A stretch of 9,796 bases of DNA from Anaerolineae bacterium (GTDB lineage Bacteria > Chloroflexota > Anaerolineae > B4-G1 > SLSP01), in contig JAFGSL010000483.1 of assembly GCA_016934645.1 (NCBI GenBank), forward strand, positions 1-9,796, in the 5' to 3' direction. Position numbers and translations under genes: made by a program. The notes beneath the pieces are model-generated. The model ran no database searches, was not told where the DNA came from, and was given only the letters and a program-made list of their open reading frames with translations. Below are positions 1-7,414 of the stretch, piece by piece. Numbering within the stretch: the stretch's first letter is position 1; every line of letters starts with the position of its first letter.

Positions 1-854
1 AACGTCAATCCCCGTTCGACGGTCGCGGCCACAAACGCAGCGCGGACACTTTGCCCCTTGAGAATGACGCTCCCGGTCAGCGCGCAGGGAATCGCGCCGG
101 TCAGTTTCAGGCGGCGCGCGACGGCTTCCACAGAGACCGCCAGTTCCCGGCCCGCATCCTGCAAAATCGTCTCGGCTACGGCGTCGCCCTGCAAGGCTAT
201 CGCCTGTGTCAACGCCGCGAGTGCGGCAATGTCGGCGCGCTGCGCGGATTTGTAAACGTGGCCGATCAAGTCCTGTGGTTGCGCGAGCGACCAGTACTCG
301 AGGATGGTCTCTGTGAGCGCGGTCTGCGGCCCGCGCCCGTCGGCGGCGCGGGCCACGGCGCGCAAGGCTGCCTGCCCGATAGCATAGCCGCCGCCGTCGT
401 CGCCGAGGAGATAGCCCCAGCCGTCCGCGCGGGCAGCTTGCCCTTGTGAATCCTCGCCGTAGACCATCGAGCCGGTGCCGCAGAGCACGGCGATCCCCCA
501 GCCTGCCGGCGTTCCCGCTGCCAGCGCCAGACGCGCATCGTGGGTGATGACGACCGGCACGCCGGGATAGCGGGCATCAGCCCACGCGCGAATCACGGCC
601 TGATCGGCGGGGCGCGCCGCGCCCGCCATTCCAAGACAAAGCGCCGCCGGACGCGCCGGACGCCCGCCCGCCGCGACTTCCACCGCTGCATCGAGCGCCG
701 CATAGGCTGCCTCCGCGCCGATGACTAGGTAGTTCGACGGCCCGGACATCCCGCGTCCCAGGATATTGCCAGCCAGGTCGGCGATCAACGCCGTCGTCTT
801 GCTGCCCCCGCCGTCGATACCGATCACAAAATCTGCAAATGGCAAAATCTGCAA
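1..854 (-). CDS. N-acetylglucosamine / N-acetylmuramic acid kinase, BadF/BcrA ATPase family (3' end cut by window edge)
   Basis: Sugar kinase of the ASKHA fold (BadF/BadG/BcrA/NAGK family), expected to make GlcNAc-6-P and possibly MurNAc-6-P from ATP. The frame is open to the left edge, giving about 284 codons of a family usually 300-340 long. Numbering from the TTG at 854, I see the phosphate-1 motif DGGGSKT at 14-20, HDA at 105-107 (the Asp is the likely base), the phosphate-2 GTGS at 126-129, and GWGYLLGDDGGG at 145-156. The start is uncertain. TTG 854 has GGGAG nine bases upstream and lies 1 nt after the murQ stop; GTG 827 has no Shine-Dalgarno and would begin right at the first beta strand. 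The residues between these starts are encoded by a short direct repeat. Placement directly after MurQ recalls clostridial MurK, which phosphorylates both MurNAc and GlcNAc. Family is confident; sugar preference is inferred. Confidence 0.88.
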   Translation of the reverse strand, partial: MQILPFADFVIGIDGGGSKTTALIADLAGNILGRGMSGPSNYLVIGAEAAYAALDAAVEVAAGGRPARPAALCLGMAGAARPADQAVIRAWADARYPGVPVVITHDARLALAAGTPAGWGIAVLCGTGSMVYGEDSQGQAARADGWGYLLGDDGGGYAIGQAALRAVARAADGRGPQTALTETILEYWSLAQPQDLIGHVYKSAQRADIAALAALTQAIALQGDAVAETILQDAGRELAVSVEAVARRLKLTGAIPCALTGSVILKGQSVRAAFVAATVERGLT

Positions 855-867
855 ATCACAAATCTCC
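827..867. repeat. Short direct repeat at the murQ / kinase junction
   Basis: A 14-nt unit, caaaatctgcaaat, occurs identically at 827-840 and 843-856, and a degenerate third copy (cacaaatctcc) follows. The array covers the last codons and stop of murQ, the 1-nt gap and the first codons of the kinase. It belongs in style with the other short-period arrays in this locus and blurs the true kinase start. Confidence 0.75.
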
Positions 868-3138
868 CAGTGCTAAACGAACAATTCCGCCAACGGCTTT
901 CAGCCTTTCGCGAGCTTCTTCAGGTGAAACAGTATTGACCAGCGCCACAATCGCCGTTTTGACCTCGCCGTTGCAGGTGTTCAAAGTGCGCTCAATATCC
1001 TCGTCCGTAATTCGAGATTCATGATTCATGATTCGAGATTCGTTCACTGCCTGCATCACAATTCGCCGCGCACGTCGCCGCAGTTTTTCATTAGTGGCTT
1101 GCACATCCACCATCAGGTTGCCGTAGGTCTTGCCCAGGCGGATCATCACGCCGGTCGAGAGCATGTTGAGCACCATCTTCTGTGCGGTCCCGGCCTTGAG
1201 CCGCGTGGAACCGGTGATCACTTCCGGGCCGGCGATAGGCGCGATGGCGATGTCCGCCAGCTCGTGAACCGGCGCGGGACGGTTGCACGCCAGGCTGATG
1301 GTGAGCGCGCCGCGGCGCCGCGCTTCCGCCATACCACCCAAAACGTAGGGGGTGCCACCGCTCGCGGCGATACCGACGACGCTGTCTTGCGCACCCACAT
1401 TGAGCGCTGCGATGTCGCGCGCGCCGGATTCACGGCTATCCTCCGCGCCTTCTACCGCCGTCGTGAGCGCCACCTCGCCTCCAGCGATCAGCCCGACGAC
1501 CTGCTCCGGCGCAGCGTTGAATGTCGGCGGGCACTCGGACGCATCCAGAACGCCCAACCGCCCCGACGTCCCCGCGCCGATGTAGATCAGCCGTCCACCC
1601 GTCTGCATCCGCGCCGCGATACGGTCTATCGCCTCCGCAATCGCGGGCAGTTCCACCTCCACCGCTGTCGCCACCTTCGCATCCTCCGCGTTGATCAGGC
1701 GCACCATCTCAAGCGTGGAGGCTGTATCAATGTGCCTTGTGGCAGGGTTGCAAGATTCGGTAATGTGATTGGAGATTGAAGATTTGCTGATTCGCCGATT
1801 CGCCGATTCGCTGATTCGCTGATTCCCCGGTGTGATATTACCGAGGATAACCGGGTGGCGCGCGCCGGTGGCGGCGGGGAGGCTGCCGGGCCGGCCATGC
1901 CAGGTTTCGTAAGCGAGCACGGCGAAGGCAACGGCTTCTTTGGCTTCCACGCCCAGGCCGACATCGTCCGAAGGGATGACACGAATGCCGGGAAGCTGAC
2001 CGCGCAGCATCACCATCAACGTGGGATTGCACGCCCCGCCGCCGCTGACGATGACTTCGTCAGGCATCGTGGGCAGGAAGTTGCGGTACGCCTGTGCGAT
2101 GGATGCTGCTGTAAAGGCTGTGAGTGTAGCGACAATGTCCTCAGGCGCTAAACCACGCGCCATCCCTCGCTCCCATGCGCGCGCGCCGAATTGCGCGCCG
2201 AACAGTTCGCGGCCGGTCGTCTTGGGCGGTGATTGATGCAGGTATGGCTCGCGCAGAAGGTCGTGTAGCAGCATGTCATCCACGTAACCACGCGCTGCCA
2301 ACGCGCCATCGCGGTCGAAGGTGAGCGCGCCGTCTGTAGCGCGGTGGGCAGCATAGTCGATCAGCATATTGCCAGGTCCAGTGTCGAACGCAAAAGGGGA
2401 TTGGTAATCGGTAATCGGGGATTGGGGATTGGGAACTGGCGATTTGGAACTGGTGATTGGGGACTGAGGACTGATGACTAACGACTGAGGACTAAGGTAC
2501 GTTACATTCGCGATGCCGCCGATGTTTTGGGTAGCCCGGGTAAGTGTGGGATGTGTGAGCAGCAGCGCGTCAACGTAGGCGACGAGCGGCGCGCCGTGTC
2601 CTCCGGCAGCCATGTCGCGGGTACGGAAGTTACTCACGACGGGAATGCCCGTCATCTCCGCGATGACCGCCGGTTCACCCAGTTGCAGCGTCGCGCCACC
2701 CTCCGTTCCATCCAAAGGACTTGCACAACAATCGGCTTCTTCCACCGCAGAGGACGCTGAGAGCGCCGAGGTGTCATAAAATCTCTGCGACCTCTGCGTG
2801 CTCTGCGGTGAAATTTCGGGAGGAATATGCCATACCGTTTGCCCGTGACTGCCGATAAGGTCCGCCTGCGCGGGCGTCAATCCGGCTTCATCGATGGCCC
2901 ACAACGCCGCTTCGCCGAAGGCTCGCCCCAGGGCAAAATTGAGGCGGCACAGACGATCCACGCTGCCGGTTTCCGGGCGGAAGCAGGCGAAAATTTCGTC
3001 ACGCAACGCCGCCGGATGCGGGACGTGCGTGTGGCCCAACACCTCCCACGAGAGTGCGGGCGGCGCGCCCTCCAGACGGACAATGGCGGCATCCGCGCCG
3101 TCGGCGGACGTGCCGGACATCAGGCCGATGACGATCAT
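856..3138 (-). CDS. anmK/murQ: Bifunctional anhydro-N-acetylmuramic acid kinase / N-acetylmuramic acid 6-phosphate etherase (AnmK-MurQ fusion)
   Basis: A single 760-residue frame carries two cytosolic peptidoglycan-recycling enzymes. AnmK (about 1-437) opens and phosphorylates 1,6-anhydro-MurNAc to MurNAc-6-P; MurQ (about 460-760) removes D-lactate to give GlcNAc-6-P, so the fusion couples consecutive steps. AnmK marks: [12 protein letters not shown] at 7-18, GSHGQTVWH at 96-104, QLGEPAVIA at 152-160, [11 protein letters not shown] at 205-215, [11 protein letters not shown] at 251-261, SGGGACNP at 365-372. MurQ marks: CNPATRHID at 463-471, the SIS-domain [20 protein letters not shown] at 521-540, GAEDSRESG at 564-572, [19 protein letters not shown] at 644-662. 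Four stretches absent from normal family members are repeat-encoded: about 107-147, 216-248, 438-459 (the linker) and 698-711. Without them each half has its usual length (about 370 and 290). The ATG at 3138 has AAGGA eight bases upstream. All core motifs look intact, so both activities are plausible. Confidence 0.93.
1006..1047. repeat. Heptad repeat array read in frame inside MurQ
   Basis: On the plus strand the units attcgag, attcatg, attcatg, attcgag follow one another with period 7. On the coding strand the tract gives a heptapeptide periodicity (ESRIMNH then ESRIT, residues 702-711). It sits between the helix ending RRIVMQA and the conserved TDEDIERTL segment, where ordinary MurQ proteins have only a few residues. 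The frame is kept and the plus-strand and other-frame TGA/TAG triplets are avoided. Confidence 0.82.
1762..1827. repeat. Octamer repeat array forming the AnmK-MurQ linker
   Basis: Plus-strand units gattcgcc or gattcgct recur about five times with period 8, preceded by degenerate 7-8 nt units starting gatt. Translated on the minus strand, they give an 8-residue periodicity (NQRISESA then NRRISKSS). The coding-strand unit gaatcagc contains no stop triplet in any phase, so the array is open in all three frames. It lies exactly between the usual AnmK C-terminus (GNITPG) and the usual MurQ N-terminus ([11 protein letters not shown]). Confidence 0.87.
2395..2493. repeat. Heptad repeat array read in frame inside AnmK
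   Basis: About fourteen imperfect 7-nt units (plus-strand examples: taatcgg twice, ggattgg twice, ggactga twice, then tgactaa, cgactga, ggactaa). Three heptads equal 21 nt, so the peptide also has period 7: SPQSLVI, then SPQSPIT, with three more degenerate copies up to residue 248. It separates [11 protein letters not shown] from FAFDTGPGN, two AnmK motifs normally joined by a short loop. Confidence 0.88.
2743..2810. repeat. Imperfect inverted-repeat element read in frame inside AnmK
   Basis: Left arm starts caccgcagag (2743), right arm ends ctctgcggtg (2810). The arms are complementary with mismatches over about 30 nt and flank a short AT-rich centre (about 2773-2782). Each arm repeats a ctctgcg-like word. 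The element encodes residues about 110-132, within an extra stretch at about 107-147 between the HGQTVWH and QLGEPAVIA motifs. It resembles the intergenic element at 7334-7406 in architecture and vocabulary. Confidence 0.82.
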
Positions 3139-3203: not shown

Positions 3204-3644
3204 TCAGGATAGCTGAAGGTGATTTGCGATCTCGCCGAGGAAAACAACATAGGATAGCCTTTCTAAACGTTGCACTAGACGCACATCGGCAGTGACCAAC
3301 GTTGCACCGGCGCCTTCAGCCACCGCTGCAAAGACAGCGTCATATACACTGGTGTCATAAACACGGGCGAGGTTCACCGAGCGCCGGGCAATTTCCGAAG
3401 ATGCAACGACCCACTCAAGATCCAAATTAAACAAACTTTGAATCGCCGTTTCAAGATGCATCGTGGTGAACTCGACTTTATAGCGTAAGACATTAGCGAC
3501 TTCGTAGATCAATAATGTTGGCACAATCACCCGAATGTGACCCTCGAGGTAGCCGTGCAGAATGTCCAGAGCTTGCTCTGCCAGGATTTCTTCCTGGCGG
3601 ATCCATTTGAGCACTACTGAAGTATCCAACACCAATTGGATCAT
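3204..3644 (-). CDS. vapC: PIN-domain ribonuclease toxin, VapC family
   Basis: A 146-residue single PIN domain of typical VapC length, expected to be a Mg2+-dependent RNase neutralised by its partner. The acidic set is present: D7 in LVLDTSV, E48 in IYEVANVL, D102 in SVYDAVFAA, D120 in LVTADVRL. The start ATG (3642-3644) overlaps the antitoxin stop as ATGA, the usual translational coupling. It lies between the serine hydrolase and anmK-murQ and interrupts an otherwise metabolic row. There is no sign of damage. The RNA target cannot be predicted from sequence. Confidence 0.92.
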   Translation of the reverse strand: MIQLVLDTSVVLKWIRQEEILAEQALDILHGYLEGHIRVIVPTLLIYEVANVLRYKVEFTTMHLETAIQSLFNLDLEWVVASSEIARRSVNLARVYDTSVYDAVFAAVAEGAGATLVTADVRLVQRLERLSYVVFLGEIANHLQLS

Positions 3645-3907
3645 CGGCGCTCATCTCGCCAATATCGCACATCCTCGGTACTATCTTCGCCAACGCCAGG
3701 AGAAACTTGCGCCAACATATTCAAGGATTTCACGGCGTCTTGCACATGAGGGAGATCGCCGGGTCGCAGTGCGCCGACACGCGACGCCATATACTGGCGT
3801 AACGCTTCGCGCACCAACTCACTACGACTGCGCTGCTCGGCTTCGGCTAACGTATCCACTTGCGCCAGAAACTCATCGGGAAAAGACAACATCACCTTGA
3901 CAGTCAT
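3641..3907 (-). CDS. vapB: Ribbon-helix-helix antitoxin, VapB-like
   Basis: An 88-residue protein. Residues 3-40 form a ribbon-helix-helix fold: a beta strand VKVMLSFP, then helices around DEFLAQVDTLAEAEQ and SRSELVREALRQYM. This is the CopG/MetJ-type DNA-binding class, which dimerises on operators and represses its own operon. The acidic and aromatic tail (EDSTEDVRYWRDERR) is the expected toxin-binding segment. The start ATG at 3907 has a strong GGAGGT five bases upstream, and the stop overlaps the toxin start. Pairing with a PIN toxin is clear; VapB is used in the loose sense, since RHH is only one of several antitoxin folds. Confidence 0.9.
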   Translation of the reverse strand: MTVKVMLSFPDEFLAQVDTLAEAEQRSRSELVREALRQYMASRVGALRPGDLPHVQDAVKSLNMLAQVSPGVGEDSTEDVRYWRDERR

Positions 3908-7327: not shown

Positions 7328-7333
7328 TTGCCT

Positions 7334-7406
7334 GGACGCAGACTCACGCAGATTTTCGCAGATTTTTATCTCTAAAATCAGCGTTCATCTGCGAGAATCT
7401 GCGTCC
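7334..7406. repeat. Imperfect inverted-repeat element between GH20 and GNAT genes
   Basis: Outer arms ggacgcaga (7334-7342) and tctgcgtcc (7398-7406) are perfectly complementary. The match continues with mismatches over about 33 nt per arm, using repeated cgcagatttt-like words, to a short centre around 7368-7373. It fills nearly the whole gap between the GH20 stop and the GNAT ribosome site. In form it is sister to the element inside anmK at 2743-2810. No T run follows, so it is not an obvious terminator. Confidence 0.78.
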
Positions 7407-7414
7407 TAAAAATC

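Follow-up and report, generated by a model that had tools for sequence, protein, structure and literature searches.

Stop-free short repeats in the linker and loops of a fused AnmK-MurQ gene, and in frame in other genes of Anaerolineae-type genomes

The DNA examined here, which we call the window, is a stretch of 9,796 nt from an Anaerolineae bacterium (contig JAFGSL010000483.1, assembly GCA_016934645.1), and our subject is a gene on its reverse strand that joins anmK and murQ, together with the short repeats that this gene carries (Table 1). Both halves score above the cut-offs of their family profiles, AnmK matching NF007148 at 459 bits (cut-off 387) and MurQ matching TIGR00274 at 379.4 bits (cut-off 302). 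In an AlphaFold2 model of the 760-residue open reading frame (ORF), with a mean predicted local distance difference test (pLDDT) score of 84.4 and a predicted template modelling (pTM) score of 0.58, both enzymes are confidently modelled and both folds match solved AnmK and MurQ crystal structures. Confidence falls below a pLDDT of 50 in five stretches, four of which are repeat sites: residues 109-146 (site A), 175-180, 223-237 and 239-243 (site B), and 440-456 (the linker, site C). Residues 436-470 are free of in-frame start-type codons. A preliminary description of this DNA had placed the two genes in one open frame, with AnmK running to its GNITPG end and MurQ opening at its usual start; the ORF translation and the profile matches to both halves bear this out and put the MurQ start near residue 461.

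Table 1. Coordinates of the AnmK-MurQ gene, its parts and repeats in the window, and of a comparison fusion
Feature	Coordinates	Strand	Description
AnmK-MurQ fusion ORF	856..3138	-	single open frame, 760 amino acids, AnmK then MurQ
AnmK part	1831..3138	-	residues 1-436; NF007148, PF03702
MurQ part	859..1758	-	residues 461-760; TIGR00274
Linker, site C	1759..1830	-	72 nt, residues 437-460
Octamer array	1781..1829	-	coding-strand unit GAATCRGC, about six units; Tandem Repeats Finder (TRF) and lag-8 test
Site A	2695..2820	-	in-frame palindromic insert in AnmK loop; 126 nt, 42 amino acids; arms 2740-2770, 2783-2813
Site B	2395..2493	-	in-frame heptamer array in AnmK loop; period-7 array called 2400-2497
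Site D	1010..1042	-	in-frame heptamer array near MurQ C-terminus; TRF, period 7
Repeat at murQ/sugar-kinase junction	823..865	-	contains murQ stop TGA; kinase frame begins inside repeat
AroQ-aminotransferase fusion with repeat-built junction	L334:2015-3883 (G406), L375, L376		three genomes, one genus

The linker between the two enzymes is built largely of an octamer array, whose lag-8 score of 29.5 compares with a maximum of 11.5 among 200 Markov-resampled windows. On the coding strand the unit GAATCAGC is stop-free in every phase and encodes the peptide ESANQRIS, whereas its reverse complement reads ADSLIR*F and so has a stop; across 1781-1829 the coding strand is open in all three frames and the opposite strand stops in two of three. 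The array is not palindromic (fold z -0.79), and no inverted pair of at least 14 nt was present within 1781-1829 among the pairs listed. The period-8 array and its freedom from stops in any phase, both claimed in the preliminary description, therefore stand for the coding strand, but the array is not the only thing between the halves: octamers span about 49 of the 72 linker nucleotides, and the remaining 1759-1780 reads by eye as a heptamer-like tail. Nor is it the sole repeat of the gene, as sites A, B and D are also in frame.

At site A the palindrome (2740-2813) folds strongly (z -4.28), and the corresponding segment is 5 amino acids long in 11 of 22 loci examined, with no anchor in 6 of the 22; anchoring of sites A, B and D failed in several of these loci. 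Inserts of at least 8 amino acids occur among 120 listed fused proteins in 10 rows at site A, 55 at site B and 13 at site D, not all of them being repeats. In the closest relative found (L003), whose AnmK is 88% identical to that of the window, site A is a near letter-for-letter match while site B and the linker carry different repeats, which points to fast turnover. Downstream, the murQ stop lies inside the repeat at the sugar-kinase junction, so murQ is not fused to the kinase gene. Elsewhere in the window, an intergenic palindrome of CGCAGA-type motifs at 7328-7407, between GNAT-type and glycosidase-type genes, resembles site A by eye. Positions 3204-3907 hold a gene pair with a PIN domain and a ribbon-helix-helix domain, which we take to be a likely VapBC-type toxin-antitoxin module.

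The octamer is dispersed beyond this gene. A 21-nt octamer pattern matched 12 times in genome G001, 86 times in G002 and 4 times in G005 (three of six genomes tried), with no match to a reversed control, and was found in 8 of 24 family genomes and in 25 of the 298 genomes of a class sample. G475 had the most hits in that sample, 341, and three of its regions were fetched. To describe the reading frames around the arrays, about 3 kb was fetched around all arrays of G001 and G005 and most of those of G002 (its contigs C6, C42 and C139 being left out), and an array was counted as in frame if open for 150 nt on either side. By this rule 27 of 40 arrays sit in a frame that is open on the array's own strand (17 of 27 in G002, 10 of 10 in G001 and 0 of 3 in G005), none lies in a frame open on the opposite strand only, and one is open on both strands. 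Inversion in place leaves 16 of the 27 in-frame arrays open, and under strand-blind insertion the absence of opposites has a probability of 3.5e-6. This strand bias recurs in a second set, composed of the first 20 regions of G406 in listing order and 20 hand-picked regions from six genomes outside the genus, where 12 of 23 and 13 of 21 arrays, respectively, are open on their own strand and neither group has an opposite-only case. All 27 in-frame arrays of the first set are at most 45 bp long, and none of the six longer ones is in frame.

Many of the genes that hold octamers are conserved. Pfam domains were present in all nine hand-chosen octamer ORFs (FAD oxidoreductase, xanthine dehydrogenase type, 5-enolpyruvylshikimate-3-phosphate (EPSP) synthase, MutS, CarB, PolA, PurD-PurM, PurL and CarA) and in 13 of 20 further ones, among which we presume, going beyond the Pfam titles, AroK-AroB, AroQ-aminotransferase, a metal ATPase, an Lhr helicase and proteins of HemW and MutS2 type. 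Genes of related genomes that hold the octamer in frame, in coding-strand orientation, include MutS, PolA, AroA, CarA, CarB, PurL and PurD-PurM. Heptamers behave differently in the same genomes: in ten contig pieces each of G001 and G002 (G002 C6 was skipped, an octamer array lying at its end), open frames hold 3 of 24 heptamer arrays, compared with a fraction of 0.75-0.77 of random 30-mers, and a stricter score with another ORF rule placed 1 of 20 period-7 or period-8 arrays in frame. A scan at score 14 misses 21-bp arrays and was repeated at score 11. Heptamers lie in frames more often elsewhere (5 of 15 in G615, 2 of 9 in G522). The idea that arrays in general are gene-borne is ruled out by the heptamers of G001 and G002, which are mostly outside open frames, and we therefore restrict that statement to the octamer.

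Regarding the age of the AnmK-MurQ fusion, the observation that all 120 listed homologues are fused was dropped as evidence because the length filter conceals separate genes; a search with the AnmK half returned fused and separate forms intermingled. A tree of 132 AnmK rows calls for at least 19 changes between fused and separate states, 8 of them forced by well-supported branches, and a tree of 109 rows with MurQ added calls for at least 16, with 6 so forced. The clade that holds the window gene (the window clade) has 21 rows with a support of 98, 15 fused and 6 separate, where L003 and P0121, and likewise L001 and P0005, are the same sequences; in the AnmK tree 5 of its 18 rows are separate. 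Besides L003/P0121, the separate members are P0122, P0123, P0124 and P0128. P0033, which falls with the window clade in a group of support 93, is fused and has a linker that is non-repetitive by eye. A model with unequal rates of gain and loss fits better than one with equal rates (log-likelihood -48.68 vs -54.36; AnmK tree, -54.91 vs -57.90), and gives a fused window-clade ancestor with P 0.94-0.99 and fused listed parents with P 0.90-1.00. With parsimony, a gain cost of at least 2 makes that ancestor fused on both trees. On balance we lean towards the fusion being older than its linker array, holding that order about twice as likely as the reverse.

Linkers and spacers were compared across 22 distinct fused loci with DNA and 26 separate loci, with p values from 200 shuffles; six further separate rows, five from other phyla and L257, were left out. 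A significant repeat of period 6-11 is present in 9 of the 22 fused linkers (the window, L001, L198, L226, L210, L004, L207, L209 and L220; p <=0.005) and in 3 of the 26 separate spacers (L003, L013 and L053), a difference with a Fisher value of 0.042 that is uncorrected for kinship. Among the 13 fused linkers that lack such a repeat, L218 has a palindrome whose pattern occurs 23 times exactly in that genome, counting the linker copy, and 12 show neither. At L013 anmK and murQ are separate, and the 317-bp gap between them is full of heptamers, with the anmK stop inside the array; the pattern of this CAACTCG family has 15 overlapping hits in the genome, 6 of them in that gap. The L003 linker is 110 nt long and out of frame, and within its array the anmK TGA overlaps the murQ-frame ATG (ATGA). 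Spacer length modulo 3 was set aside as a sign of secondary splitting, with only L201 and L204 in frame among seven close separate loci. Two further observations concern single genomes. The fused linker of P0029 retains CMNNQ, a match to the murQ start region at the separate loci L008 and L013, and has no octamer peptide; judged on its sequence, it resembles a recent fusion made by deletion. One metagenome-assembled genome (MAG) holds two AnmK-MurQ copies (G001:C19 and G001:C69), perhaps from two strains binned together.

Two other fusions that carry the octamer offer a comparison. For PurD-PurM, all 120 listed relatives contain the domains of both enzymes, in a list whose length filter conceals separate PurD, and octamer peptides from our own motif list are confined to the close relatives (18 of 21, against 0 of the 99 others), where they sit in the linker and in a GARS_C-domain loop. 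By eye, some of the linkers printed for distant relatives resemble other repeats; the rest do not. The fusion therefore reaches beyond the relatives that have the octamer, and PurD-PurM looks like an older fusion that the octamer entered afterwards. One PurD loop (L278, L286) is occupied by octamers in G002; in G001 the insert there is a different one, rich in GC.

AroQ-aminotransferase offers a different picture. One open frame spans both in G406, G002 and G001, all three genomes of the genus with the pair; the fourth, G407, returned no aroQ/aminotransferase locus. Between the conserved cores, repeats fill 96, 123 and 117 nt, respectively (lag p 0 of 200): octamers and CCAAAAT heptamers in G406, other heptamers in G001 and G002. 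Six members of the family have the two genes side by side as separate frames, divided by in-frame stops in intervals of 52-249 bp. Four of these intervals have a lag p of at least 0.39, the others being those of G423 (0.03, period 10) and G422 (0.005-0.015, period 11), and by eye none of the six contains the octamers or heptamers of the genus. Across the class sample of 298, only G001 and G002 span both without a stop among the matches listed. The join is probably one evolutionary event rather than nine independent points, and the repeats could have arrived after it. Even so, it is at aroQ/aminotransferase that a repeat-made fusion, the route put forward in the preliminary description, fits best.

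For AnmK-MurQ itself, the account that we favour, and think reasonably probable, is that a dispersed stop-free short repeat invaded a gene that was already fused. GAATCRGC octamers, in a mixture with heptamers, would have spread through this Anaerolineae-type Chloroflexota lineage, coding genes included, with slippage, recombination and template switching as candidate routes of copying. Inside genes, the octamer would persist where extra flexible residues are tolerated, such as loops, inter-domain linkers and gene junctions. Its survival there may be due to open reading in all coding-strand phases and to the polarity of the ESANQRIS peptide. Several repeat families would in this way have come to fill, replace and resize the linker and three loops of AnmK-MurQ, and at a gene junction the stop-free property may erase the boundary.

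The competing order, in which a stop-free repeat entered the anmK-murQ gap of the window clade, or grew across it, and erased the stop, ribosome site and start, was what the preliminary description proposed. We consider it possible but rather unlikely for this gene, because repeat-free fused forms are common in many other branches and the better-fitting, asymmetric model places the fusion earlier. Three other sites, moreover, were invaded inside domains, away from any gene boundary, and the PurD-PurM octamers appear to have entered a fusion wider than themselves. Fused relatives with non-repetitive linkers, which the same description had taken as a mark of an older fusion, were found in part (12 of 22 loci with neither repeat nor palindrome), but none by eye in the window clade; separate relatives whose spacer has no significant repeat of period 6-11 were found too (23 of 26), the exceptions being L003, L013 and L053. 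Several results weigh against our preferred order. The nearest sisters of the window clade are 13 separate rows (support 99) together with P0138 and P0155, also separate (group support 93); equal-cost parsimony makes the window-clade ancestor separate on both trees, and at a gain cost of 1.5 the two trees disagree, one giving a fused ancestor and the other a separate one. Equal rates lower the probability of a fused ancestor to 0.76 and of a fused parent to 0.70 on one tree, and to 0.27-0.28 and 0.16-0.18 on the other. By eye, the linkers of all 13 fused window-clade proteins (P0001-P0013) are repeat-like and none is plainly non-repetitive. The heptamer-filled gap of L013, the palindromic linker of L218, the excess of repeats in fused linkers and the aroQ/aminotransferase case likewise speak for a fusion made by the array. 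As for the spread of the repeat, the strand test is made easier by the lack of stops in an array read in its own direction, and some ORFs of the second set are short or lack a Pfam match (7 of 20). In that set 5 of 9 arrays longer than 45 bp are in frame, so array length is no clean filter, and the unselected sample of G001 and G002 held one period-8 array, outside any open frame. That the array made the fusion is the weaker reading for this gene, while the general mechanism gains support at aroQ/aminotransferase.

Two further explanations appear much less probable. A change in copy number of a 7- or 8-bp unit would shift the frame and could toggle between one fused and two separate proteins, as the out-of-frame linker of L003 with its overlapping stop and start inside the array, and the separate rows within the window clade, might suggest; the variation, however, is seen between species only, and spacer DNA covers one of those five separate rows, L003, which is a single MAG. 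Such a switch seems very improbable. That the arrangement is an artefact of assembly or binning is more improbable still: the close relatives L001 and L003 are MAGs and tandem repeats are prone to misassembly, but in different assemblies the same four sites bear in-frame inserts that differ in their repeats, and the flanking domains are intact.

Several known systems resemble parts of this picture. The cited sections on Rickettsia palindromic elements (RPE) describe dispersed repeats in frame within conserved genes (PMC10969869, PMC3767692), and octamer arrays are also inserted in frame in conserved genes. RPE are palindromes of about 100-150 bp, whereas the octamer is a non-palindromic 8-bp tandem unit and only site A is palindromic. 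The tandem heptamers of Nostoc and Xanthomonas, of the short tandemly repeated repetitive (STRR) type, share with the octamer short tandem units dispersed through the genome and are described, in the section cited, as under-represented on the coding strand in ORFs (PMC4692102). The octamer at site C departs from their 7-bp unit, although sites B and D have period 7, and from their mainly intergenic location, since octamers sit inside genes, in coding-strand orientation. Palindromes like repetitive extragenic palindromic (REP) sequences or miniature inverted-repeat transposable elements (MITE) are matched by the strong hairpins of the G661 linker, whose pattern has 23 exact genome hits, and of site A; the difference is that here, as far as sequence can tell, they serve as a coding linker or loop. 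Compared with the separate AnmK and MurQ enzymes of N-acetylmuramic acid (MurNAc) recycling, the two folds are alike and the predicted product is fused. At the level of titles and abstract openings, we found no prior description of such in-gene repeat linkers in the literature, and make no claim that they are unreported.

The wider pattern of repeats is a more interesting result than the role of the array at AnmK-MurQ. Gene fusions are usually dated, though the DNA route by which they arise is rarely seen, and the relatives compared here display a series of plain spacers between separate genes, repeat-filled spacers between separate genes, fusions with repeat linkers and a repeat linker split by frame. 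Core enzymes such as MutS, DNA polymerase I, CarA/B, PurL and AroA carry an in-frame simple repeat, contrary to the usual exclusion of such repeats from genes, which is relevant to gene calling and to judging the linkers of metagenome proteins. More tentatively, and with somewhat more doubt than belief on our part, stop-free repeats may act in this lineage as a generator of linkers, fusing neighbours (aroQ-aminotransferase and possibly anmK-murQ), splitting them by frame change and resizing the linkers and loops of core enzymes.
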